A DNA stretch of 64,000 bases, taken from NCBI RefSeq assembly GCF_000519085.1, contig NZ_KI912577.1, positions 69,501 through 133,500 of the forward strand, read 5' to 3'. Below are positions 18,859-33,383 of this stretch, piece after piece (the first letter of the stretch is position 1; every line of letters starts with the position of its first letter). This stretch comes from Methylobacterium sp. 10 (GTDB lineage: Bacteria > Pseudomonadota > Alphaproteobacteria > Rhizobiales > Beijerinckiaceae). The notes under the pieces are model-generated. The model had not been told where the DNA came from. It searched no databases and worked only from the letters and a program-made list of their open reading frames with translations. A program made the translations under genes and the position numbers.

Positions 18859-19307
18859 TGGGCGACCGGCTGCCCGAGGGCGGGTTCAGCCCCCTCGTGC
18901 CGGAACTCGACGTCCACGACTTAGCAGCCAGCCTCGTCTTCTGGCGCGGATTGCTGGGATTCTCCGTCGCCTATTCCCGACTGGAGAACGGCTTCGCCTA
19001 TCTCGAGAGGGACGGGGCGCAGGTGATGCTCAACGTCGTCAACGGGAACTGGCGGACGGGGGCCCTCGAACCGCCGCTCGGCCGCGGGATCAACCTTCAG
19101 ATCGCGATCGATGCCGTCGATCCGATCCTGGCAGCCCTGGATACCGCGTCCTGGCCCCTGTTCCGGCCCGCGCACGAGGCTTGGTACCGGGTCGGGGAGA
19201 TGGAAGTCGGCGTCAGGCAATTCCTGGTTCAGGACCCCGACGGGTATCTGCTGCGCTTCGCGGAGAATCTGGGGCGACGCCCGCTCAACCCTGGCGGGCA
19301 GGCGTGA
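18855..19307 (+). CDS. VOC (glyoxalase/bleomycin-resistance-like) family protein
   Basis: A 150-residue vicinal-oxygen-chelate fold protein. It shows VPELDVHDLAASLVFWRGLLGF at the start (the first beta-alpha-beta unit) and, near the end, FLVQDPDGYLLRFAENLG, the standard VOC C-terminal block with the metal-position Glu in the FAE stretch. Bleomycin-type binding proteins, dioxygenases and lyases share this fold, so the activity is open. The ATG overlaps the VWA stop (ATGA at 18855), so it is co-translated with that gene. Its last 23 bases overlap the converging ferredoxin gene. Confidence 0.85.
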   Translation: MMGDRLPEGGFSPLVPELDVHDLAASLVFWRGLLGFSVAYSRLENGFAYLERDGAQVMLNVVNGNWRTGALEPPLGRGINLQIAIDAVDPILAALDTASWPLFRPAHEAWYRVGEMEVGVRQFLVQDPDGYLLRFAENLGRRPLNPGGQA

Positions 19308-19605
19308 CGACCTTGAGGCCGTCGAGTTCGGGCTTGATCCGGATCTGGCAGCACAGACGCGAGGTCGCACGCACGTCGGACGCGAAATCGAGCATGTCCT
19401 GCTCCATCGGTTCGGCCGGTCCCACGGCATCGACCCACTCGGAATCCACATAGACGTGGCAGGTGGCGCAGGCGCAGGCGCCGCCGCATTCGGCATCAAT
19501 GCCCGGCACGTTGTTGCGGATCGCCGCCTCCATCACGGTCGATCCTACGTCGGCTTCCACGGTCCTGGCCGTTCCAGCATGGTCGACGTAGGTGATCTTG
19601 GGCAT
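19285..19605 (-). CDS. 2Fe-2S ferredoxin, adrenodoxin/ISC type
   Basis: A 106-residue plant/vertebrate-type 2Fe-2S ferredoxin that shuttles electrons in the cytoplasm. It begins MPKITYVDHAGTARTVEADV. The cluster ligands are Cys40, Cys46 and Cys49 (AECGGACACATCHVYV), giving C-x5-C-x2-C, and a last Cys in SRLCCQIRI, the order of the adrenodoxin/ISC-Fdx class. Typical partners are Fe-S assembly or cytochrome P450 and ring-hydroxylase reductases; none is adjacent. The start is the ATG at 19605, because an upstream in-frame leader adds nothing family-like. It converges on and overlaps the VOC gene by 23 bases. Confidence 0.9.
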   Translation of the reverse strand: MPKITYVDHAGTARTVEADVGSTVMEAAIRNNVPGIDAECGGACACATCHVYVDSEWVDAVGPAEPMEQDMLDFASDVRATSRLCCQIRIKPELDGLKVVTPARQG

Positions 19606-19720
19606 CGAAGACTCCAGGCTCGTACAACGCGTCTGCGGCCGGTTGTGCGGCGCGACTGCCTTGAAGGCGCGGCCCGGTGAATGCAAGCGTCACCGGCCTC
19701 ATCGCCCGACATTCCTGCGC

Positions 19721-20089
19721 TTACGTTGCAGACGCCGACCCGTTCCGTCCTTTCGCCTGAGATCGGACGGGTGCGTCGATTTCCGCCAGGGTCGCCCGCA
19801 CCGTGTCGGTCAACGCGGCATAGACCGCGGCCGGAACGACGCCGCCCCGACGCAGGCCATCCTCGATGGCGGCGCTGAGTTCGGCGACCCGCGCGGCGCC
19901 GACGCCGAGGGCGGAGCCCTTCAGCGTGTGGGCGAGGTCGGCGCGGTGGCGTTCATCGAGGCCCGGATCGGTGATCCCGGGCAGCAACCGGCGGCATTGG
20001 CCGGCGAAAAGCCCGAGCAGTTCGCGGGCGAGGTCGACGTCGCCGAACGTCTGCTCCGCGAGGTAGGCGTGATCAATCAGACTGGTCAC
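19721..20089 (-). CDS. Single-domain histidine phosphotransfer (HPt) protein
   Basis: A 122-residue HPt protein. The phospho-accepting histidine is His54 in DLAHTLKGSALGVGA, the HxxKG signature that follows the helix LARELLGLFAGQCRRLLPGI. No kinase or receiver domain is present, so it would relay phosphate between a hybrid histidine kinase and a response regulator encoded elsewhere. The GTG at 20089 is chosen because the family-like part begins there. It is divergent from the GPR-like giant gene (20382), with 292 bases of shared promoter region. In alphaproteobacteria, phosphorelays control the cell cycle and general stress, but this is not the ChpT fold, so its pathway is open. Confidence 0.85.
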   Translation of the reverse strand: MTSLIDHAYLAEQTFGDVDLARELLGLFAGQCRRLLPGITDPGLDERHRADLAHTLKGSALGVGAARVAELSAAIEDGLRRGGVVPAAVYAALTDTVRATLAEIDAPVRSQAKGRNGSASAT

Positions 20090-20381
20090 CCGTGGCCTCG
20101 CCTTAACCGAACCGGGCGTTTGAGCGCCCCTCCACCAGTCTATCCACAGGAGCGGTCGAGATCGTTCGCTTCCGTTTAAGCCTTGCGGCATCATGCATAA
20201 AGCCGACGGGATGAAACCGGCCACACGCTTGGTAACCATTCCGTTAAGGTTTTTTGGACGGTTCGACCCACTCGGGTATCCGGGTCTCGCGCCGAGGTCT
20301 AAAGTTCCTTGGTAAATTGGTAAAAATGTCGTCGATCACCGGATGCGGCCGGCTTCGACGACCTGCGTAACGAGGCGTTGT
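20090..20381. other. Shared promoter region of the HPt and GPR-like genes
   Basis: About 290 bases, AT-richer at 20160-20340. A weak CtrA-like pattern is seen on the minus strand at 20234-20247 (TTAA-N7-GTTAC, reading CTTAACGGAATGGTTACC). It has two mismatches to the consensus, so it is not listed as a site. Runs such as GGTAAATTGGTAAAAATG lie just before the giant gene. No gene is seen. Confidence 0.4.
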
Positions 20382-23300
20382 ATGGCCACGGAAAAGAAGC
20401 TCAAGGACCCGGCCGAGGCGGCTCTTTCCGCCATCGAGCAGGCCCTCAACCTGGACTTCCCCTCGACGCAGGCGACGGAACCGCGCGTCGAGCCGCGGCT
20501 CCCGGACGTGGGCGACAACGATCCCCTCAGCGATCCCAGCGGCCGCCTCGCCCCCCCGCGCCTCGATCTCGACCAGCCCCTGGCCTCCGACCTGCCGCCG
20601 CCGGACCGCAACCGGCCGCGCCGCGAAGGAGGCCTGCTGCCGCCAGACCGCTCGATGGTGGCCAACGACGACCGCCAGAACATCGGCATCCTGCAGCAGA
20701 CCCTGCGCGTGCGGCCGTCCGGGACGCCCTACATCGCCGCCGCCATCGTCTCCGCCCTTTGGTTCGCCGCCCTCCTCGCGCTGGCCTGGAACCAGTCGGG
20801 CGGCGAGCTGAAAAGCTTCATCGCCGGGATGACCGCGCTTCAGGCCGCCGTCGGCGCCACCGCCATCGTCGGCCCCATCGTCCTGTTCGCCATCATGGCG
20901 ATGCTTGCCGTCCGCGCCCAGGAGATGCGCCTCGTGGCTCGCGCCGTCGGCGAAGTGGCGATCCGCCTCGCCGAGCCGGAAAACTTCTCCACCGATGCCG
21001 TCCTCACCATGTCGCAGACGGTCCGCCGCGAGGTCGCGGCCGTGGGCGACGGCGTCGAGCGGGCCCTGGCCCGCGCCGGCGAGCTCGAGACCCTGGTGCG
21101 CGGCGAAATCGCCACCCTGGAACGCGCCTATTCCGACAACGAGATCCGCATCCGCTCCCTCGTCGACGAACTCGTCGCCCAGCGCGAGTCCATCGTCGCC
21201 AATGCCGAGCGCGTTCGCGGCGCGATCACCGGATCGCACCAGAACCTCACCCAGGAACTCGACGGGGCGGCCGAGCGCATCGTCGCCGCCGTCACCGGAG
21301 CCGGCGAACGGGTGACCGGCGCCCTCGACGCCCGCGGCGAGGCCATCACCTCGGCGCTCGGGAACCGAGGCGACGCCATCACGGCCGCCTTGGGCGAGGC
21401 CGGGGACCGCGTGGTCGGGCTCGTGACCGACCGGGGCGACGACCTCGTACAGCGCCTCGCCAGCACAAGCGAAGGCGTCCGCAGCAGCCTCACCGAAGTC
21501 GGCAACACCCTGACCCAATCCCTGGAGAGCCGGGCGGCGGACGTCACCCTCGCCTTCGAACGCACCGGCGGCATGCTCACCGCGACGCTGGCGGACAATG
21601 CCGGCCAGGTCGCCCGCACCCTCGCCCAGACCGGCATGGAGGTGATCGAGAGCCTGAACCGCCAGGGCAGCGAAGTCCGCCAGACCTTCGAGGAGTCCGC
21701 GCGCGGTCTCGAGAGCACCTTCCTCGCCCGGGGCACCGAACTCACCACGAACTTTTCCCATACCGGAGGCGAGATCACCGCCCGGTTCGCCGAGACCGGC
21801 ACGGCGCTCCGCGAGCATTTCGCCGCCACCGGCGCCACGCTCACCGACGACATCGCCGCTCGCGGCGCCGCTCTGCGAGCCGAGATCGAAGCCGCCGGCA
21901 GCGGCGTGTCCGAGGCGATCGAGGTCCGTACCCGCGAGGCGCAGGCCGGTCTGGCCCAGGCCTCCGACGGGATCGTCGAGACCTTCGCCGCACGGACCGG
22001 CGCCCTGCGCGACGACCTCGTCCGCTCGATCGAGACCGCCGGCAGCGGCATCGACGAGCGCGCCGGCCATCTGGCCGAGCGCATCGATACGGTGGCCACC
22101 CGCCTGCACGAGACCCTCACCGTCCAGGGCGGTTCGCTCGAGAGCAACCTCGCCTCCGCCGGGGAGCGGATGGGAGACCTCGTCACCCAGCGCGCCGAAG
22201 AAGCCGCGCGGGCCATGGATGCGGCCCTGGCCGCCCTCGGCACCCATTTCGAGACCCGGGCCATGGGCACGGTGGAGAACCTCCGGGGCACCGTGGCGGG
22301 TCTCAACGGCGAGATCGACGCCCGGTCGGCCGAGGCCGCGACCGCGCTTCGCAATAGCGCCGAGGATACGGCCTCCGTCGTCAACACCAGCATCCGGCGC
22401 CTCAACAAGGCCGGCGAGCAGGTCGGCGGTCTCGTCACCCAGCGCGTCGAGGACGCGACCCTCACCCTGACCGGCGCCTTCGGCGTTCTCGGCAGCACCT
22501 TCGATTCCCAGTCGGGCAGCGCGATCGAGAGCCTTCGTGCGGTGCTCGACACCCTCGGCAGCGAGATCGGCTCGCGGACCAGTGAGGCCGCCGACATCTT
22601 CCGCCGCAGCGCGGAAGAGACCACCGTGGCACTCGGCGCCAGCACGGCGGAAGCCGCCCAAGCCCTGCGGCGCTCGTCGGCGAGCGCGACCGGCGAACTC
22701 GAAGCCCGCACGGTGGAGGCGGTGCAGATCTTCGAGCAGCGCCTGTCCGCCACGTCCGCCGAGCTCGCCGCCCGCACGGAGGAAGCAGCACAGCTCCTGC
22801 AGCAGGCCGCCAGCGGCCTCAGCGGCGAAGTGGGAGGACGCGCTCAGGACACGATGGAGGCCCTGCGCCGCACCCTCGCCGAGATCGACGAGACCCTCCT
22901 CCACCGCGCCAGCGAGGCGACAGTCTCCATTGCCCGTGCGGCCGAGAATGTCGGCGGCGAACTCGCCGCCCGGATCAAGGACGTCGAGGCCTCCTTCGGC
23001 ACCCATAGCCGTGGCCTCACCGACCTGATCACCACCCATGCCGAGGAGGCCCATGGCCAGCTCGCCAATACCGGCCGCGAGATCGTCCTGGCGGTGACCG
23101 CCCAGAGCGCGCGGGTCAACGATGCCCTCTCCCGGAGCAGCGCGAGCTTCGCCGACACGACGGAAAGCCGGGCGAAGGCCATCGACACCGTCCTCAACGA
23201 CCGTCTCGCGGCCCTGCAGGAGACCATCGCCCGCGGCGATATCCTCGCCGACCGCATCGCCCGCGACACCTCCGCCCTCAGCGAGACCGTCACCGGCCAG

Positions 23301-26300
23301 CTGCAGGAGATGGACCGGGTCATCACGGTGCAGGGCAAGGCCGCGGCCGACACCATCGCCGAGCGCGCCCGCGAAGCCCGCGAGACCGTGGAGAGCCAGC
23401 TCGGCGCCCTGGAGGAGCGTTCCGTGAAGCGCTCCGCCGAGATCGGCGAGACCTTCACCCATCTGGTGAACCAGATCGACGGGCAGCTCGGCTCCCGCGC
23501 CACCGCCCTCAACGAGGCCCTGATCCTGCGCACCGGCGAGATGGCACGGATCATGGTCGAGGGCAGCCGCGACCTCGTGCAGACCCTCGATGCACGCGCC
23601 GACGGCATGGCGCAGGACATCGCCGCCCGCAGCCTCGCCTTGGGCGACACCCTCGGCAGCCGTTCCACCGAGATCGCCGCGCGCTTCGAGCAGCAGGCCG
23701 GTGACCTGTCCCGTCGTATCGACGAGGGCGTCGGCCGCTTCGACACCAGCGTGATCGGACGCCTCGATGCCATCGCGGCAGCGCTGGAGGAGCGCAGCCG
23801 CCTGATCGACGAGACCTTCGGCTCCCAGGCCTTCGAGGCGATCCGCCTCATCGAGAGCCGCACCCGCGCCGTGGACGAGGATCTCGCCAACCGGACCCGC
23901 GAGCTCGTCGAGATGATCGAGAGCCGGACGGGCCATGCCAACGAGGCCCTGGCCGGCCAGGCGGAGGCGATCCGCTCCTCGTTCTCGCACCGCGCGGAGT
24001 CCCTGGCCGCCCTCATCGACGAGCGCACGGCCGCCATGGGCCAGGAGCTCGACGAGAAGGGACGCATCGTGTTCGGCGCCCTCGGAACCCGCATCACCGA
24101 ACTGGCCCAGCTGTTCGATCGGGGCGGCTCCTCCCTGGCGGAGCTTCTGGAGCAGCGCGGCGACACCATCATCGGCCGCCTGCGCGACGTCGTCACCGAT
24201 GCGGACCGGCTGCTCAGCGAGGGCGAGGGCCGCCTCGGCTCCACTCTGCAGACGCGGACCACCGATATCGGCAGCCTCCTCGACGAGGGCGTTCGGACCG
24301 TCCACCAGCTCCTCGACAACCGGACCAACGAAATCCGGACGATGCTGGACGATCACTCGCAGGTCCTCACCAGCAGCCTCGACGACCGGCTGGCGCCCCT
24401 GCACGATTCGCTCGGCCAGCACGGCCGGACCTTCGTCGACACGATCGAGGCCAGCCTCGGCGGCGCGGCCGGCGCGGTGGAAGCCCGCACCCGCGACCTC
24501 GTCGCGCTGTTCGACCAGCGCATCGGAGCCCTGGACGAACTCGTGGACGGTCGCGGCGCCAGGATCGCGGAATCGGTGGAAGCCCGCACCCACGGGCTGC
24601 GGACGCTCTTCGACGACGTCCTCACCGCCCTCGACGGGCTGGTGGACAGCCGCGCCGAAGCGCTCACCGACCGGGTCGATGCACGCACCCATGCCTTGAG
24701 CGCCCTGTTCGACGAGCGCCTGCGGGCGATCGACCATCTCATCGAGAATCGCGCGGCCGAACTCGTCCACACCATCGACACTAAGGGCACCGCCCTGACG
24801 CAGACCGTCGACGACCGCACCCAGGCCATGGGCGCGCTGTTCGACGACCGCATGCAGGCCCTCGATACCCTCGTGGCGGACCGTTCGGCGGACTTCGTCC
24901 GGACCCTCGATACGAAGGGCTCCGTCCTGACCCGCTCGGTCGATGCGGGCACGGCCATGATGAGCACGCTGTTCGACGAGCGCCTGCGCGCCCTCGACCA
25001 TCTGGTCGAGAGCCGGACGGCGGACCTCATCCACACGGTGGACGAGCGCGGCGGCGACCTCACCCGGACCCTCGACGACCGCACCGTCTCCCTGCGCGCG
25101 CTCTTCGACGAGCGCTTCCATGAGCTCGCCGCCCTCGTCGAGAACCGGACGGCCGAGTTCGCCCATACCGTGGACGACCGCGGCGGCAGCCTGACCCGGT
25201 CCCTCGACGACCGGACCAGTTCGCTCCGCGCGCTCTTCGACGATCGCCTCCATGAGCTCAACGCTCTCGTCGAGACCCGGACGGCGGACTTCGCTCGCAC
25301 CATGGAGATGCAGGGCAGCGCCCTCTACCGGTCCGTCGACGAGCGCACGGAATCCATGGGTGCGCTCTTCGACGAGCGCCTACGCGCCCTCGATCACCTC
25401 GTGGACAACCGCGCGGCCGAGTTCGCTCGCACCATCGACGACCACGGCACGTCGCTGACCCGGGCCGTCGAGGCCGGCGCCCAGTCGATCGGCACCGTGT
25501 TCGACGAACGCCTGCGCGCCCTCGACCTTCTCGTGGACAACCGGTCGGCCGACCTCAGCAACACCATCGACAACCGCGGCGCGTCGCTGGGCCAGGCCGT
25601 CGAGGCCAGCGCCCAGTCGATCGGCAGCGTGTTCGACGAGCGCCTGCGTGCCCTCGCGGCCCTCGTCGACAGCCGGACGGCGGAATTTACCCGCACCGTC
25701 GACGACCAGGGTCTGTCGCTGACCCAGTCGGTGGATACCCGCACGCAGGCCATCGCCGCCTTGTTCGACGAGTGCCTGCGCGCCCTGGAGCGGCTGGTGG
25801 AGGGCCGTACCACGGCGTTCGCCCAGACCATCGACAACCAGGGCGCCGCCCTGACCCAGGCGGTGGATGCCCGAAGCGAAGCCTTCACGAACCGGATCGA
25901 CAGCCGGATGAAGGTCTTCGCCGCCCTCGTGGCGTCGCGCGGCGATGCCCTCGCCAACGCGTTCGACGACCGCCAGGACGCCTATGCCGCCCTGGTGGAC
26001 GAGCACAGCGCCACGATGCTCGCCGCCTTCGACGAGCGCGTGGACCGTCACGCCGCCCTCGCCCAGGCCCATGCCGACGCGCTGGCCACGGCTCTGGACC
26101 AGCGCAACGAGGCGGTGGCCGCCCTCATCGACGGCCGTAACCAGGACATGATCGCCGGCTTCGACCGCCGCTCGACGGCCCTGGCCTCGCTGATCGAGGC
26201 TCGCGGGCAATCGCTCGCCCGCCGCCTGGCCGAGAGCGCGGAGACCATCACCCGCGCCATCGAGGAGCGGGGAGGATCGGTCGTGGAGACGATCGACGGT

Positions 26301-28310
26301 CGCGGAAACCAAATGGTCGAGGCGATGGCGACCCATTCCGAGCGCCTTCGCGAGATCGTCGAAGGCCCGGCCTCCCGGCTCGTCGCCTCCCTGGGCGAGC
26401 GCAACCAGGAGATCGCGCGCATCCTCGACGAGAGCGGAACGCCCCTCGCCGAAACCCTGCGCGAGCGGGTCCGCGACCTCGCGGAACAGTCCGACGCGTC
26501 GAAGAACGCCCTGCTCGCGGCCATCGACGGCGGCGCCTCCCGCGCGCTGGCGAGCCTCAACGAGGCGAACGATCGGCTCCGCAGCGAACTCGGCGGCGTC
26601 CTGAACCGGGTCGAGGGTGCGAACTCGGCCCTGCGTGAGCTCATCACCGATGCCGGCGAGAATCTCGGCGCCATCGAGCAGGGCCTCTCGGGGCGTGTCG
26701 AGCAGGTGCAGGCGACGCTCTCCGCCATCGGAAGCGAGACCGAGCGCGCCAGCCGGAGCGTTGCCAAACAGGTCGATCAGTTGAAGGCGGTCGCCGAGGG
26801 CGCCCTGCGTGATGCGGCCGACCTCGCCGCCTCCCTCGATGCCCGCGGGACCTCGCTCACCGAGATCTCCCGCGCCCATTCCAGCACGCTCACCAGCGCG
26901 GCGGGCTCGCTCGAGACCGTCGAGACGCGACTGATCGATCTCCTCTCCAGCCGTGACAAGGCGGTGGAGGACGTGCTGACGCGCATCGAGGCGCGGTCCG
27001 GCGCCCTGGAGGAGCAGACCGCGCGCTTCGACACGCTGATGGCCGAGACCCTTCGCTCCGCCGAGGAGCGGGCGCGCGGCATCGCCGGCAGCCTGTCCGA
27101 GGCGGCGCAGAGCGCGGGGGCTAGCGTGACCGGAGCCTTCGAGGGCCTGCGCAAGGATGCCGGCAGCGAGGGCGAACGGACCGCCACCGCCGTTCGTGCG
27201 GCGATCTCCGGCGCCTCCGAGCAGATGATGACGGTGTTCGAGGGCGCCGCCGGCCGCTTCGGCGACTCGGTCGCGGGGATGCGCGAGATGGCGGCCGAGA
27301 TCCGTCGCGAACTCGAGGCGACGCGGGCTGACCTGCAGCGCGGCGTTCTGGAGATTCCCCGCGAGACCCAGGATGCCACCAGCGAGATGCGTCGGGTCGT
27401 GTCCGATCAGATCAAGGCGCTCAACGAGCTGTCCTCCCTCGTCTCGCGCTCGCGCCGAAGCGTCGATGTGACCGAGGCGGGAGCCCCCGCCCAGCGCAAG
27501 CCGGACGTCCAGGCCACCGGACCTCAGGAGGCGACGGCCCCGGTAGCGGCGCCGTCCAAGCCGAAGCAGGCCGCGGCCAGTCCGGCCGCGACGCCGGCGG
27601 GCAACAAGCCCTCCGAGCCGAAGGCCCGCGAGGACAAGGGATCCGACCCCCGTCCGACCCAGCAGATGACCATCGTCTCCGCTCCGGCGGCAGCCGGCCG
27701 GGCCGGCAACCAGGCCGCCCTGCGTCCCGGTGAGGCCGTGCGCGGCGCCGTCCCGGCGGCCCGCGACGGACGCGACAACCGCGGCTGGCTCTCGGATCTC
27801 CTGACCCGCGCCTCCCTCGACGACGACACGGACGGGTCCGATCCGGCGAACGCCTCCCCCGCGAACGCCGATGAGCCCAAGCCCGCGAAATCCGGAGCCG
27901 CGAGAGCGGAGCCGGCCAAGGGAGCGGCCGGTGTTGAGCCGAACAAGGCCGCCGTCGAGCGGAGCCGAACCGCCCTGGAGACGATCTCCACCGATATCGC
28001 CAAGATGATCGAGCATCAGACGGCGGTGGAACTGTGGGAGCGTTACCGTCGCGGTGAGCCGAACCTGTTCGACCGCCGCCTCTACACGGCCCAGGGTCGG
28101 CAGACCTTCGAGGAGATCCGCCGGCGCTACGCGGCCGATGCCGAGTTCCGCCGGACGGTGGACCGGTATGTCGGCGAGTTCGAGCGGCTGCTCGGCGAGG
28201 TCTCGAAGAACGACCGCGACTCGCGCCGCGCCGATGCCTACCTCACCTCGGAGACGGGCAAGGTCTACACGTTGCTCGCCCATGCGAGCGGCCGCTTCGA
28301 GGGGGCGTGA
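20382..28310 (+). CDS. Giant apolipoprotein-like coiled-coil membrane protein, Growth Pole Ring (GPR/RgsE)-like
   Basis: A 2642-residue protein. Residues 1-112 are polar and disordered. Two membrane segments follow at about 117-136 (AAAIVSALWFAALLALAW) and 154-177 (AAVGATAIVGPIVLFAIM). About 2150 residues of apolipoprotein A1/A4/E-like 11-residue periodic helix come next (for example LFDERLRALDHLVDNR), including nine 44-residue repeats at residues 1442-1837. Then there is a Pro/Ala/Lys-rich linker, and a globular C-terminal domain of about 110 residues (VELWERYRRGEPNLFDRRLY ... YLTSETGKVYTLLAHASGR). This layout matches the GPR protein of Agrobacterium and RgsE of Sinorhizobium, which form a ring at the growing pole and are needed for polar growth. 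The ATG at 20382 is chosen over an upstream in-frame ATG. Homology is from architecture. Confidence 0.75.
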   Translation: MATEKKLKDPAEAALSAIEQALNLDFPSTQATEPRVEPRLPDVGDNDPLSDPSGRLAPPRLDLDQPLASDLPPPDRNRPRREGGLLPPDRSMVANDDRQNIGILQQTLRVRPSGTPYIAAAIVSALWFAALLALAWNQSGGELKSFIAGMTALQAAVGATAIVGPIVLFAIMAMLAVRAQEMRLVARAVGEVAIRLAEPENFSTDAVLTMSQTVRREVAAVGDGVERALARAGELETLVRGEIATLERAYSDNEIRIRSLVDELVAQRESIVANAERVRGAITGSHQNLTQELDGAAERIVAAVTGAGERVTGALDARGEAITSALGNRGDAITAALGEAGDRVVGLVTDRGDDLVQRLASTSEGVRSSLTEVGNTLTQSLESRAADVTLAFERTGGMLTATLADNAGQVARTLAQTGMEVIESLNRQGSEVRQTFEESARGLESTFLARGTELTTNFSHTGGEITARFAETGTALREHFAATGATLTDDIAARGAALRAEIEAAGSGVSEAIEVRTREAQAGLAQASDGIVETFAARTGALRDDLVRSIETAGSGIDERAGHLAERIDTVATRLHETLTVQGGSLESNLASAGERMGDLVTQRAEEAARAMDAALAALGTHFETRAMGTVENLRGTVAGLNGEIDARSAEAATALRNSAEDTASVVNTSIRRLNKAGEQVGGLVTQRVEDATLTLTGAFGVLGSTFDSQSGSAIESLRAVLDTLGSEIGSRTSEAADIFRRSAEETTVALGASTAEAAQALRRSSASATGELEARTVEAVQIFEQRLSATSAELAARTEEAAQLLQQAASGLSGEVGGRAQDTMEALRRTLAEIDETLLHRASEATVSIARAAENVGGELAARIKDVEASFGTHSRGLTDLITTHAEEAHGQLANTGREIVLAVTAQSARVNDALSRSSASFADTTESRAKAIDTVLNDRLAALQETIARGDILADRIARDTSALSETVTGQLQEMDRVITVQGKAAADTIAERAREARETVESQLGALEERSVKRSAEIGETFTHLVNQIDGQLGSRATALNEALILRTGEMARIMVEGSRDLVQTLDARADGMAQDIAARSLALGDTLGSRSTEIAARFEQQAGDLSRRIDEGVGRFDTSVIGRLDAIAAALEERSRLIDETFGSQAFEAIRLIESRTRAVDEDLANRTRELVEMIESRTGHANEALAGQAEAIRSSFSHRAESLAALIDERTAAMGQELDEKGRIVFGALGTRITELAQLFDRGGSSLAELLEQRGDTIIGRLRDVVTDADRLLSEGEGRLGSTLQTRTTDIGSLLDEGVRTVHQLLDNRTNEIRTMLDDHSQVLTSSLDDRLAPLHDSLGQHGRTFVDTIEASLGGAAGAVEARTRDLVALFDQRIGALDELVDGRGARIAESVEARTHGLRTLFDDVLTALDGLVDSRAEALTDRVDARTHALSALFDERLRAIDHLIENRAAELVHTIDTKGTALTQTVDDRTQAMGALFDDRMQALDTLVADRSADFVRTLDTKGSVLTRSVDAGTAMMSTLFDERLRALDHLVESRTADLIHTVDERGGDLTRTLDDRTVSLRALFDERFHELAALVENRTAEFAHTVDDRGGSLTRSLDDRTSSLRALFDDRLHELNALVETRTADFARTMEMQGSALYRSVDERTESMGALFDERLRALDHLVDNRAAEFARTIDDHGTSLTRAVEAGAQSIGTVFDERLRALDLLVDNRSADLSNTIDNRGASLGQAVEASAQSIGSVFDERLRALAALVDSRTAEFTRTVDDQGLSLTQSVDTRTQAIAALFDECLRALERLVEGRTTAFAQTIDNQGAALTQAVDARSEAFTNRIDSRMKVFAALVASRGDALANAFDDRQDAYAALVDEHSATMLAAFDERVDRHAALAQAHADALATALDQRNEAVAALIDGRNQDMIAGFDRRSTALASLIEARGQSLARRLAESAETITRAIEERGGSVVETIDGRGNQMVEAMATHSERLREIVEGPASRLVASLGERNQEIARILDESGTPLAETLRERVRDLAEQSDASKNALLAAIDGGASRALASLNEANDRLRSELGGVLNRVEGANSALRELITDAGENLGAIEQGLSGRVEQVQATLSAIGSETERASRSVAKQVDQLKAVAEGALRDAADLAASLDARGTSLTEISRAHSSTLTSAAGSLETVETRLIDLLSSRDKAVEDVLTRIEARSGALEEQTARFDTLMAETLRSAEERARGIAGSLSEAAQSAGASVTGAFEGLRKDAGSEGERTATAVRAAISGASEQMMTVFEGAAGRFGDSVAGMREMAAEIRRELEATRADLQRGVLEIPRETQDATSEMRRVVSDQIKALNELSSLVSRSRRSVDVTEAGAPAQRKPDVQATGPQEATAPVAAPSKPKQAAASPAATPAGNKPSEPKAREDKGSDPRPTQQMTIVSAPAAAGRAGNQAALRPGEAVRGAVPAARDGRDNRGWLSDLLTRASLDDDTDGSDPANASPANADEPKPAKSGAARAEPAKGAAGVEPNKAAVERSRTALETISTDIAKMIEHQTAVELWERYRRGEPNLFDRRLYTAQGRQTFEEIRRRYAADAEFRRTVDRYVGEFERLLGEVSKNDRDSRRADAYLTSETGKVYTLLAHASGRFEGA
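24705..25892 (+). repeat. Nine tandem 132-bp repeats (44-residue units) inside the GPR-like gene
   Basis: Units begin at 24705, 24837, 24969, 25101, 25233, 25365, 25497, 25629 and 25761. Each encodes a 44-residue unit that opens with LFDERLRAL or VFDERLRAL and has a conserved mid-unit Thr-Val-Asp stretch. Two 33-residue units precede them at 24507 and 24606. All are multiples of 11 residues, as in apolipoprotein helices. The units are similar at the DNA level but not identical. Confidence 0.85.
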
Positions 28311-28321
28311 CATTCCTCGAC

Positions 28322-28347
28322 GACGGGGCGGCATCCGCCGCTCCGTC
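28322..28347. terminator. Hairpin between the convergent GPR-like and DUF1489 genes
   Basis: An 11-bp stem pairs GACGGGGCGGC (28322-28332) with GCCGCTCCGTC (28337-28347), with one G-U pair and loop ATCC. It lies 12 bases after the giant gene and 18 bases before the end of the converging gene. There is no T-run, so it may act as a bidirectional Rho-assisted stop. Confidence 0.5.
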
Positions 28348-28364
28348 ACAGGGCCGTGACGAGG

Positions 28365-28857: not shown

Positions 28858-29949
28858 TCAGGAGAACAAGGCGAGTTTCTCTTTCTCGCTCAGGCCGTCG
28901 ATATCGGCGAAGGCTGTGGCGATGTCGGTCTTCTCCGCCACAGGCGCCGGCTTTGCCGCGGCGGGTTCGACGTCATTGAAATCGGTTTCATCGAAATTGG
29001 TCGTGTCGGCCTCCTCGGCACTGGACGCCTGAGGATCGGACACTTGGAGGCCGGCCTCCGGGAGAACGGATTCGTGGAAACCGGACCCTTGGAGACCGGT
29101 CTCTGGGAGACCGGACTCGTCGAAGGCGCCCTCGGCCATCGCCTCGGGTGAGGACGGCTCGCTGGACAGGGTCTCGTTCTCCATGGTCTCAGCAGGGGCG
29201 AGGGGCAGCATCGCCGGCTCGGCCTCCACTTCGGACGCCGCCTGCGCCTCCGACCGCACCGAATCCATGCCGATGAACCGGTCCACGTCGCTCTGGTCGA
29301 GATCCTGGGCGACGGCCGACGCGGTGGAGCCCGGTGCCGGTGGGATCGGCTCGACCTCGCCGCCCCAGATCGCGATCATCGCCGCGAGGCGTTCTTCGAG
29401 ATAGCGCAGGGTGTGGATGATGCGCGCGGTCCGCTGCGCCGTGAGATCCTGGAACGAGCAGGCGGTGTAGATTTCCGTGGCCCGGCGGTCGAGCACGTCG
29501 CAGATCTCGGCGTCGGCGCCGGATTCGCGCATGGTCCAGGCGGTTTCCTGCACCTCCTCCGCAGCACCCAGGATATCGGATGTGGCACGCTCGGTGGCCC
29601 GGACGATGGCGTCGAGGGCGACAGAGGCGATACCCAGCCGGCTATGGTCCTGATCCACGGTGCTGATCGCCGCGATCTCGGCCTTGGTGCGGGCGATGGC
29701 ATGGGCCATGTCCATCAGGTCGCCGCGCATGCGCCCGACCCGCTCGGTCTCCCGGTCGGAGGGGCGGTCCGCCGTGACCGCGCTTTCCAGGCGCGCGATG
29801 GCGCCGAGGAGGATGTCGGTATCGGCGCTCCGGTTGCGCCTCGTGTATTCCGCGAGAAACCAGCGGCCGCGTTCGCTCTCGCTCATCGCCGCTTCGATCC
29901 GGTCGTATTCCGACTCGTCGACCGATGTGAGCGAACGCATGACAGACAT
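28858..29949 (-). CDS. cheZ: Chemotaxis protein phosphatase CheZ
   Basis: A 363-residue protein that would dephosphorylate CheY-P. Residues 30-185 form the long helical hairpin of CheZ, and the catalytic motif CSFQDLTAQRTARII carries Asp168 and Gln172, the counterparts of E. coli CheZ Asp143 and Gln147, spaced by four. Residues 200-350 are an acidic, Ser/Glu-rich linker with degenerate repeats (ESGLPETGLQGSGFHE). The C-terminal peptide DIDGLSEKEKLALF corresponds to the CheY-binding tail. The linker is much longer than in E. coli (214 residues in all). The ATG at 29949 has AAGGA upstream, and 29940 is an alternative. No other che gene is near, and a CtrA-like box lies 80 bases upstream. Confidence 0.8.
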   Translation of the reverse strand: MSVMRSLTSVDESEYDRIEAAMSESERGRWFLAEYTRRNRSADTDILLGAIARLESAVTADRPSDRETERVGRMRGDLMDMAHAIARTKAEIAAISTVDQDHSRLGIASVALDAIVRATERATSDILGAAEEVQETAWTMRESGADAEICDVLDRRATEIYTACSFQDLTAQRTARIIHTLRYLEERLAAMIAIWGGEVEPIPPAPGSTASAVAQDLDQSDVDRFIGMDSVRSEAQAASEVEAEPAMLPLAPAETMENETLSSEPSSPEAMAEGAFDESGLPETGLQGSGFHESVLPEAGLQVSDPQASSAEEADTTNFDETDFNDVEPAAAKPAPVAEKTDIATAFADIDGLSEKEKLALFS

Positions 29950-30028
29950 GGAACTCGTGTCCTTGATGGTGCCTCGCGCCGTTGCGCGAAGTCGCGGGGA
30001 CCAGCTCCGACAGATTGACACGATGCCT

Positions 30029-30043
30029 TTAACGCCCCCTTTA
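30029..30043. promoter_or_regulatory. CtrA-like box upstream of cheZ (one mismatch)
   Basis: TTAACGCCCCCTTTA, followed by C, i.e. TTAA-N7-TTTA(C), one mismatch from the CtrA consensus TTAA-N7-TTAA. It lies 80-95 bases upstream of the cheZ start on the minus strand and about 80 bases before the TTG start of the MFS gene, so it may serve either. Confidence 0.35.
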
Positions 30044-30119
30044 CGGGTCGAATCGTCGTCAGCGGCCGGCAACGCTTCGCCTCCAGGCCGCTCCGCCCCT
30101 CGATCGAGCGGTCCCCCCT

Positions 30120-31380: not shown

Positions 31381-32550
31381 ATGAACCGGGAGTCGCGCTT
31401 CGTGCGCCACGCTGCTGCCAAGCCGAACCCAGACGCCGCCGAAGCCGCGATTCTCGGCGAAGGCGGGCGCGTGGTCCTGAGCGGCCGCTGGACGGCGGAT
31501 CAGGGCTCGTCCGTGGAGAAGGCCGCCGCGCAGATCGCGGAAAGCACCAACGGCGCTCCCATCCTCGTCGATCTCTCCAACGTCGCCCGCCTCGATACGC
31601 TCGGCGCCTGGGTGCTGGAGCGGACCCGCGGCGAGATCGAGGCGTCAGGCGGGAGTCTCGCCTATGCGGGCGCCTCGGCCGAACACCGCATCCTGCTCGG
31701 CGAGATGAAGCTGCCCGACGACGGCTATGCCGGCAAGGCGAAACGCGGACGCTTCATCGGCTTCCTGCACGATCTCGGGATCCGGGTCGTCGGCGCGAAA
31801 TCGGACATGGTGAGCGGTCTCGCCTTCCTCGGGGAGGTGGTGACCGCCTGCATCCGGGTCGCTTCGCGGCCGAGCACCTTCCGCGGCACGGCCCTGGTCA
31901 ACCAGCTCGAGCAGGTCGCCTTCCGGGGCGTGCCGATCATCATGCTGATCTCGTTCCTGGTGGGCGGCATCGTCGCGCAGCAGGGCATCTTCCAGTTGCA
32001 GCGCTTCGGGGCGCAGAGCTTCGTCGTCAACCTGATCGGCCTGCTCATCCTGCGCGAACTGGGCGTCCTCCTCACCTCGATCATGGTGGCCGGGCGCTCG
32101 GGCTCGGCCTTCACCGCCGAGATCGGCTCCATGCGCATGCGCGAGGAGGTGGATGCCCTGCGGGTGATGGGCCTCGACCCCATCGAGATCCTCATCGTCC
32201 CGCGCATCCTCGCCCTGGTGATCGGCCTGCCGATCCTCGCCTTCCTCGCCTCGCTGGCGGCCCTGGCCGGGGGCGGCCTCACCGCCTCGCTCTACGGCGG
32301 CATGACCATCGACGCGTTCCTGGCCCGGCTCCAGGCCGCCGTCTCCTTCCACCATGTGGCGGTCGGCCTGATCAAGGCGCCGTTCATGGCGCTGATCATC
32401 GGGATCATCGCCACGATCGAAGGTTTCGCGGTCGAAGGATCGGCGGAATCGCTCGGACGTCACGTCACGGCCTCAGTCGTGAAGTCTATCTTCATGGTCA
32501 TCGTATTGGACGGACTTTTCGCCGTGTTCTTCGCGGCCATCGATTTCTGA
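31381..32550 (+). CDS. mlaE: MlaE-type lipid ABC transporter permease with N-terminal STAS domain
   Basis: A 389-residue inner-membrane permease of the Mla (outer-membrane lipid asymmetry) family. Residues about 25-115 form an STAS domain (RVVLSGRWTADQGSS, PILVDLSNVARLDTLGAWVL), which in E. coli is a separate protein (MlaB); the fusion is common in alphaproteobacteria. The permease part runs from about 140 and has the family blocks VPIIMLISFLVGGIVAQQ, LRELGVLLTSIMVAGRSGSA, MRMREEVDALRVMG and EGFAVEGSAESLGRH. The ATG at 31381 follows an AT-rich leader with a possible promoter. It is the first gene of a four-gene run (to 35594), with the ATPase starting 14 bases after its stop. Confidence 0.9.
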   Translation: MNRESRFVRHAAAKPNPDAAEAAILGEGGRVVLSGRWTADQGSSVEKAAAQIAESTNGAPILVDLSNVARLDTLGAWVLERTRGEIEASGGSLAYAGASAEHRILLGEMKLPDDGYAGKAKRGRFIGFLHDLGIRVVGAKSDMVSGLAFLGEVVTACIRVASRPSTFRGTALVNQLEQVAFRGVPIIMLISFLVGGIVAQQGIFQLQRFGAQSFVVNLIGLLILRELGVLLTSIMVAGRSGSAFTAEIGSMRMREEVDALRVMGLDPIEILIVPRILALVIGLPILAFLASLAALAGGGLTASLYGGMTIDAFLARLQAAVSFHHVAVGLIKAPFMALIIGIIATIEGFAVEGSAESLGRHVTASVVKSIFMVIVLDGLFAVFFAAIDF

Positions 32551-32564
32551 CGCCCGTGAATCAC

Positions 32565-33383
32565 ATGTCTTCGCCCCCCGCGCGGTTCGATAGCGCCCCA
32601 GCCCGCGACGTCATCATCGGCGTCCGCGATCTGGTAGTCGGCTTCGGCGACAAGATCGTGATGAAGGGGCTCAACCTCGACATCTATCGCGGCGAGATCC
32701 TCGGCTTCGTGGGTCCGTCCGGGCAGGGCAAGTCGGTCCTCACCCGGACCATCCTCGGCCTGGTGCCGAAGCGCTCGGGCACGATCGAAGTGTTCGGCGA
32801 GGACGTCGACGCGATGACGATGACCCGCCGCCGGCAGATCGAGCAGCGCTGGGGCGTGCTGTTCCAGCAGGGCGCCCTGTTCTCGGCGCTCACGGTCAAG
32901 CAGAACATCCAGATGCCCATGCGCGAGCACCTGAACCTGTCCGAGCGCCTGCTCGACGAGTTCGCCCGCCTCAAGATCGAGATGGTGGGCCTGAAGCCCG
33001 ATGCCGCCGACAAGCTCCCCTCGGAACTCTCGGGCGGCATGATCAAGCGCGCGGCTCTCGCCCGCTCGCTCGCTCTCGACCCGGAGATCCTGTTCCTCGA
33101 CGAGCCGACCTCGGGGCTCGACCCGATCGGCGCGGGCGAGTTCGACGAACTCGTCGCCACGTTGAAGCAGACGCTGGGCCTGACCGTCTTCATGGTGACC
33201 CACGACCTCGACAGCCTCTACACCGCCTGCGACCGCATCGCGGCGCTGGGCGACGGGCAGATCATCGCGCAGGGTCCCATCGAGGCCATGCTGGCAAGCG
33301 ACCACCCCTGGCTGCGCTCCTACTTCCACGGCAAGCGCGCGCGGGCCATCGTCCCGCAGGGAGACCGGCATGCGAGCGCCTGA
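32565..33383 (+). CDS. mlaF: MlaF-type lipid ABC transporter ATPase
   Basis: A 272-residue ABC ATPase. It has Walker A GPSGQGKSV, Q-loop WGVLFQQGALF, signature LSGGMIKRAALARSLAL, Walker B ILFLDEPTSGLDP, and H-loop MVTHDLDS, all intact. The signature with GGMIKR is the Mla/Mce ATPase form. It drives phospholipid movement with the permease encoded upstream and the MlaD protein encoded downstream. A GTG at 32556 is an alternative start; neither start has a clear ribosome binding site. The 440-base gap to mlaD holds a palindromic repeat. Confidence 0.9.
   Translation: MSSPPARFDSAPARDVIIGVRDLVVGFGDKIVMKGLNLDIYRGEILGFVGPSGQGKSVLTRTILGLVPKRSGTIEVFGEDVDAMTMTRRRQIEQRWGVLFQQGALFSALTVKQNIQMPMREHLNLSERLLDEFARLKIEMVGLKPDAADKLPSELSGGMIKRAALARSLALDPEILFLDEPTSGLDPIGAGEFDELVATLKQTLGLTVFMVTHDLDSLYTACDRIAALGDGQIIAQGPIEAMLASDHPWLRSYFHGKRARAIVPQGDRHASA

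Follow-up and report, generated by a model that had tools for sequence, protein, structure and literature searches.

The window, that is, the whole stretch of 64,000 nucleotides of Methylobacterium sp. 10 DNA analyzed in this study, contained a gene at 20382..28310 (+) whose 2642-residue product, judged from its sequence, is an orthologue of GPR (growth pole ring) of Agrobacterium tumefaciens and RgsE of Sinorhizobium meliloti, and a member of a known protein family. We consider it highly probable that this protein is a membrane-anchored scaffold of the growing pole, in which a long helical rod serves as a phase-locked spacer. The gene, hereafter called gpr, extends the long-rod scaffolds of the growth pole to another genus, and makes the family a testable comparison.

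The gene was assigned on the basis of its open frame, codon-position GC content, and homology. The frame at 20382-28310 (+) was open over 2642 codons, and an alternative in-frame ATG at 20343 would give a product of 2655 residues. The GC content at the three codon positions was 0.73, 0.51, and 0.90, a strong bias on which the plus-strand frame was preferred over antisense frames. Two long antisense frames, at 20244-25253 (-) with 1669 aa and at 25380-28349 (-) with 989 aa, lie opposite the repetitive, high-GC gpr gene and are probably mechanical by-products of its codon pattern.

A 2089-aa CDS of S. meliloti Ak57 was used as the RgsE reference, and its length equals that of the published RgsE (2089 aa), which is described as a GPR homologue in PMC7327166. 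The membrane region of the Methylobacterium protein (residues 91-200) matched RgsE residues 96-206 with an E-value of 3.9e-13, and the C-terminal domain (residues 2535-2642) matched RgsE residues 1984-2088 with 59% identity over 105 residues and an E-value of 5.7e-44. Both ends matched RgsE in the same order, which supports the original prediction, made from the layout of the protein, that it belongs to the GPR/RgsE family; a comparison of these two regions was the check proposed there. Additionally, the rod scored 171 bits against the RgsE rod, compared with a maximum of 72 bits in 20 runs with shuffled 11-residue blocks of the Methylobacterium rod, and BLASTP of the whole protein against RgsE gave 263 bits with 24% identity. 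A. tumefaciens GPR was represented by a stand-in, a 2141-aa frame from G520, which is probably an Agrobacterium genome (a 3-kb pAtC58 probe matches it at 92%). This frame matched both ends of the Methylobacterium protein, with E-values of 7e-11 (N-terminal) and 6e-42 (C-terminal), and showed approximately 32% identity in a global alignment.

The C-terminal domain was identified in 39 of the 41 genomes of a search among relatives and in 190 of 199 genomes sampled from the whole order (both counts include the genome analyzed here); in the genus that is probably Agrobacterium, 56 of 57 genomes had it. The wide distribution of this domain in relatives, together with the ordered match of both ends to RgsE, indicates orthology. 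Of 36 loci retrieved, 31 had the N-terminal region and the C-terminal domain in a single frame; of the remaining five, two lay at contig edges, one was split between frames, and two had no N-terminal match. Frames with both ends ranged from 845 to 3301 residues among the relatives, and those of the same genus reached 3301. The length of 2642 residues is thus ordinary, and the idea of an unusually long version of the family was rejected. In genome G019, gpr was split over two overlapping frames of 2139 and 273 residues (L052:3137-9984), either by a sequencing error or because the gene is broken.

Outside the order, at least one N-terminal hydrophobic segment was found in all 21 domain-bearing loci examined (including one Sphingomonas record), and at least two hydrophobic windows, some of them overlapping, in 16 of the 21. 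The rod period was 3.56-3.63 residues in 19 proteins from outside the order and 3.62-3.67 in 20 proteins within it. Genomes G888 and G757, both outside the order, each carried two separate sites with the GPR C-terminal domain.

The S. meliloti Ak57 orthologue of RgsE (L161:6061-12330) carries the annotation 'kinesin'. No kinesin family was present among the eight Pfam matches up to E 1 when the Methylobacterium protein was scanned, and a kinesin identity was rejected for this protein, as was membership of the SpiroCoCo coiled-coil family NF047514 (32.1 bits, curated cut-off 75). The L161 record is labelled as plasmid pSymB, yet it is 3.7 Mb long and contains genes such as those for cytochrome bc1 and fol.

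The protein began with a polar tail and two membrane segments, followed by a rod of approximately 2150 residues; a linker rich in proline then led to the C-terminal domain, which is approximately 108 residues long. Hydropathy placed the membrane segments at about residues 118-136 (20733..20789, +), in the region homologous to RgsE, and at about residues 146-177 (20817..20912, +). The rod (residues about 200-2360; 20979..27461, +) was recognized by its 11-residue periodicity and its match to PF01442. Compared with 200 shuffles, its hydrophobicity autocorrelation (residues 201-2370) gave z values of 18.9, 20.4, and 21.9 at lags of 11, 22, and 44, and the dominant period was 3.66 residues, equal to three turns per 11 residues; the 11-residue pattern was weak beyond about residue 2000. 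Residues 201-2370 contained five prolines, and the longest proline-free stretch spanned 1139 residues (200-1338). The low-complexity linker (residues 2369-2530; 27486..27971, +) was defined by its proline content, with 20 prolines in residues 2371-2530. Hydropathy, autocorrelation, and proline counts are all in agreement with the layout first proposed for the protein, namely two membrane segments, about 2150 residues of 11-periodic helix, and a compact C-terminal domain.

The C-terminal domain (residues 2535-2642; 27984..28307, +) was delimited by homology to that of RgsE. An AlphaFold model built with 30 sequences predicted six helices (pLDDT 73, pTM 0.67). No confident match of this fold was obtained in the PDB (best Foldseek E 3.0; best VIA-align Z 4.0 over 78 residues), and a sequence profile of the domain gave a best E-value of 0.078 against PDB chains. 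The Pfam scan returned nothing up to E 0.1 for the Methylobacterium copy and a best E-value of 0.021 for 18 other copies. A poor or missing fold match is not proof of a new fold. No catalytic domain was found in the protein.

The same order of N-terminal membrane helices, helical rod, linker, and C-terminal domain was present in S. meliloti RgsE, although RgsE is approximately 550 residues shorter and has a period of 3.654 instead of 3.662. A. tumefaciens GPR (2115 aa) shares this layout as well, with two N-terminal membrane domains, a helical part of approximately 1700 residues that contains PF01442 domains, and an essential C terminus, as reported in PMC8262873. According to the same source, the growing pole carries a hexameric ring of GPR, which is needed for polar growth. 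RgsE is located at the growing pole of S. meliloti, where its loss causes slower growth and deformed cells (PMC7327166).

Given its orthology with these proteins, the most likely role of the Methylobacterium protein is the same polar-scaffold role as that of the published GPR. The two N-terminal helices would anchor it in the inner membrane, while an almost continuous amphipathic helix of approximately 2150 residues would extend into the cytoplasm or run along the membrane; at 0.15 nm per residue, full extension would give a rod of about 320 nm. The flexible linker would then present the conserved compact C-terminal domain. By orthology, the protein would gather in a ring at the growing pole and, as a scaffold, restrict envelope synthesis to that site, and the rod may act as a phase-locked spacer whose length shifts mostly by whole helical turns. 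Actinobacterial DivIVA is small and cytoplasmic, unlike this protein. It may be likened to GPR by role, as a growing-pole scaffold for cell-wall synthesis in cells that elongate without MreB (in part after PMC7327166).

The most regular part of the rod gives some indication of how it may make contacts. In residues 1330-1850, two of the eleven positions were always apolar, one was Asp/Glu in 96%, and one was basic in 81%, the basic and acidic positions flanking a narrow apolar face on either side. A 44-residue super-repeat was found within residues about 1400-1900, and the DNA repeat comparison showed imperfect tandem units of 132 bp (44 residues) inside the rod at 24684..25786 (+). The 11/22-residue amphipathic helix periodicity is shared with apolipoprotein A1/A4/E (PF01442), and the whole protein scored 243.7 bits against this family, over the cut-off of 90. 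The rod could accordingly be read as an apolipoprotein-like lipid binder, with 11-residue helices lying flat on membrane or lipid and organizing lipid without any spacer function, and a lipid link is favored by the GPR authors (PMC8262873). However, no individual stretch reached the Pfam cut-off in the genome search, and matches below it were likewise obtained in 7 of 14 control genomes; the match to PF01442 therefore partly reflects helix periodicity. In addition, the Methylobacterium protein differs from the apolipoproteins in its far longer rod, its membrane anchor, and its narrow apolar stripe, with two fully apolar positions of eleven and charged flanks. We regard the lipid-binding explanation as possible, but on the unlikely side. 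The narrow stripe points, though not decisively, to protein contacts more than to a broad lipid-bound face.

Changes in rod length were followed among close relatives. In the genus, all 171 pairs of 19 sequences were tried, and indels of 4 or more residues in the rod were counted; the pairs within this set, as in the second set described below, are not independent. At 85% identity or more (18 pairs), 32 of 41 rod indels were multiples of 11 residues, as were 29 of 38 distinct inserted segments, and 63 of 80 indels were multiples of 11 in 29 pairs at 70% identity. When indels of random length were put into the Methylobacterium protein and the products aligned again under identical settings, multiples of 11 were recovered in 6 of 79 and 9 of 80 cases. 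Since the simulated indels showed no excess of 11, the aligner is not the source of the rule. For a Mesorhizobium-type set of named records, 400 random pairs were tried, of which 182 had at least 85% identity. The multiple-of-11 rule fails there (just 107 of 498 rod indels), and the common indel lengths were 29, 11, 58, 36, 65, 40, 7, 72, and 18 residues, each near whole helical turns.

With similar events collapsed, the phase concentration R peaked at 0.83 for the 31 events of the genus, at a period of 3.65, and at 0.90 for the 69 events of the Mesorhizobium-type set, at periods of 3.6 and 3.625. R depended on the assumed period: across the four periods tried, it was 0.56-0.83 for the genus and 0.50-0.90 for the Mesorhizobium-type set. 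Random-length nulls had means of 0.16 (genus) and 0.11 (Mesorhizobium-type), with 99.9% points of 0.47 and 0.30. In a looser set (75% identity, indels from 2 aa), the rod gave R values of 0.72 and 0.52 for the two sets, compared with 0.12 and 0.14 for the shorter linker indels (median 4 residues) of those genes. Linker indels from 4 residues up had no helical phase either (R 0.04 and 0.17). These results show that the rod lengthens and shortens mostly by whole helical turns in close relatives, which would keep the narrow apolar stripe on one side.

The same regularity could arise by mutation alone, through unequal exchange between tandem DNA repeats and without structural selection. The imperfect 132-bp units of the Methylobacterium gene fit such an origin, as do the repeat units of 54, 87, 108, 120, and 282 bp in a Mesorhizobium ciceri gene, which are all multiples of 3 and several of which agree with common indel lengths; repeat recombination at the DNA level, and not selection, may account for part of the whole-turn rule. 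Nevertheless, multiples of 11 in the genus also occurred far from the array, at 632, 895, 957, 1181, 1313, 2058, and 2149 (in the frames of the compared pairs, not window coordinates), and the Mesorhizobium-type indels of 7, 11, 18, 29, 36, 40, 58, and 65 residues have whole turns in common, not one unit. A purely mutational origin seems doubtful to us, and the whole-turn rule makes the idea of a phased spacer cleanly testable.

The relationship of gpr to MreB bears on its role in polar growth. The matches of the Methylobacterium genome to the MreB profile were weak (best E 1.4e-14; frame lengths 441 to 703 residues), compared with about 1e-110 to 1e-150 for whole MreB elsewhere, and presumably represent relatives such as DnaK and FtsA. 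On these profile matches, the genome has no clear MreB. Across the order, clear MreB (E 6.8e-76 or better) was found in 23 of 199 genomes, with a fragment in one further genome, and 22 of these 23 had the GPR C-terminal domain. Outside the order, the domain was present in 87 of 237 alphaproteobacteria, 80 of which had clear MreB. RgsE relatives thus occur outside Rhizobiales, in agreement with the homologues from Emcibacterales and Rhodospirillales given in PMC7327166. The same source suggested mutual exclusion of Rgs and MreB, because four Rhizobiales species with MreB had no Rgs homologues; our survey, in which the C-terminal domain and MreB widely occur together, speaks against such exclusion for RgsE.

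Similar proteins in MreB-bearing alphaproteobacteria mean that architecture alone is no proof of a role in polar growth. Alternatively, the protein could have lost its part in polar growth in this lineage and have a general role at the pole or in the envelope, which would account for the frequent co-occurrence with MreB (80 of 87 and 22 of 23 genomes, as above). This is quite improbable in our judgment, given that the Methylobacterium genome has no clear MreB and its rod is long, like that of many MreB-less members; a scaffold of the growing pole is the preferred reading.

Frame lengths were compared for the best 150 of 190 order matches by E-value, so that 6 of the 23 MreB-bearing genomes had no listed length, and were measured from stop to stop, the true proteins being somewhat shorter. 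Among the matches listed, with frames below 600 residues and the genome with an MreB fragment (G033) omitted, the median was 1169 residues with MreB (n = 15, 815-1498) and 1875 without (n = 124; Mann-Whitney p 7e-6). With the short frames retained, the medians among the matches listed were 1157 (n = 17) and 1859 (n = 132), respectively, and 83 frames outside the order had a median of 1076. Medians by family gave p 0.023 for 7 MreB-bearing and 36 MreB-less families, one mixed family being left out, in a test that ignores shared ancestry; ten MreB-less families had short medians of 627 to 1129. A frame that is short with MreB and often long without it bears on the replacement of MreB-guided growth by polar growth. 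More speculatively, and with the odds rather against it, GPR may be an old alphaproteobacterial membrane-anchored rod that stood beside MreB and was lengthened where lineages lost MreB, with a phase-selected, length-tunable spacer and the adjacent Hpt protein linking it to a phosphorelay.

Divergent from gpr, a gene encoding a 172-aa protein with an Hpt (histidine phosphotransfer) domain was identified at 19721..20239 (-) (PF01627, 31.0 bits, cut-off 24.6), followed by a 2Fe-2S ferredoxin-type gene at 19285..19686 (-) (PF00111, 46.9 bits). The gene order 2Fe-2S / Hpt / gpr was the same in the window and in S. meliloti. In a survey with a profile grown from three seeds, 115 Hpt genes were found in 147 loci, all 115 divergent from gpr, and presence was counted in loci with at least 1 kb upstream. 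The Hpt gene adjoined gpr in 108 of 116 loci of the order, which are mostly Mesorhizobium-like records, so that 13 of 14 one-per-family loci is the fairer figure; by group, it was present in 20/20 loci of the genus, 68/73 named records, and 7/9 other order loci. Outside the order it was found in 7 of 20 loci and missing in 13. The eight order loci without it were L027, L076 (a 1.5-Mb genome), L078, L137, and L154, L155, L157, and L158, the last four being Falsochrobactrum, two Brucella species, and one relative. The phosphate-accepting His was kept in 112 of the 115 Hpt genes and missing in L162, L204, and L032.

The Hpt gene is a candidate for the control of growth-pole function. The 2Fe-2S gene was also conserved, in 17 of 21 other order loci compared with 1 of 21 outside, so the neighborhood may simply be stable gene order. 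In the open literature searched, we found no link between the growth pole ring and Hpt, nor any earlier report of the whole-turn rod indels, the conserved Hpt neighbor, the MreB co-occurrence, or the shorter frames with MreB; these appear to be new relative to that literature, subscription papers being mostly outside its scope. Downstream, the DUF1489 gene was rejected as a conserved partner (0 of 42 other loci, three of them with less than 400 bases downstream).

Some further genes were observed. A 774-aa GPR-like gene (L162:7006-9330) lies on an 880-kb plasmid-labelled record of Sphingomonas parapaucimobilis, beside a divergent Hpt-type gene without the His, and the record also has gltX and nuo genes. 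A plasmid-labelled record of Methylobacterium aquaticum had three pieces in common with a nearby stretch, over 4.6 kb and at 76.5%, in keeping with the Methylobacterium-type cell suggested in the original prediction but no proof of it. In the window, a 404-aa protein at 28858-30072 (-) resembled CheZ at 23.5 bits, below the cut-off of 30.7. Additionally, genes four and five of those predicted downstream of gpr, at 31381-33383 (+), encode an MlaE-type permease with a STAS domain and then an ABC ATPase, a pair that is likely involved in lipid transport.
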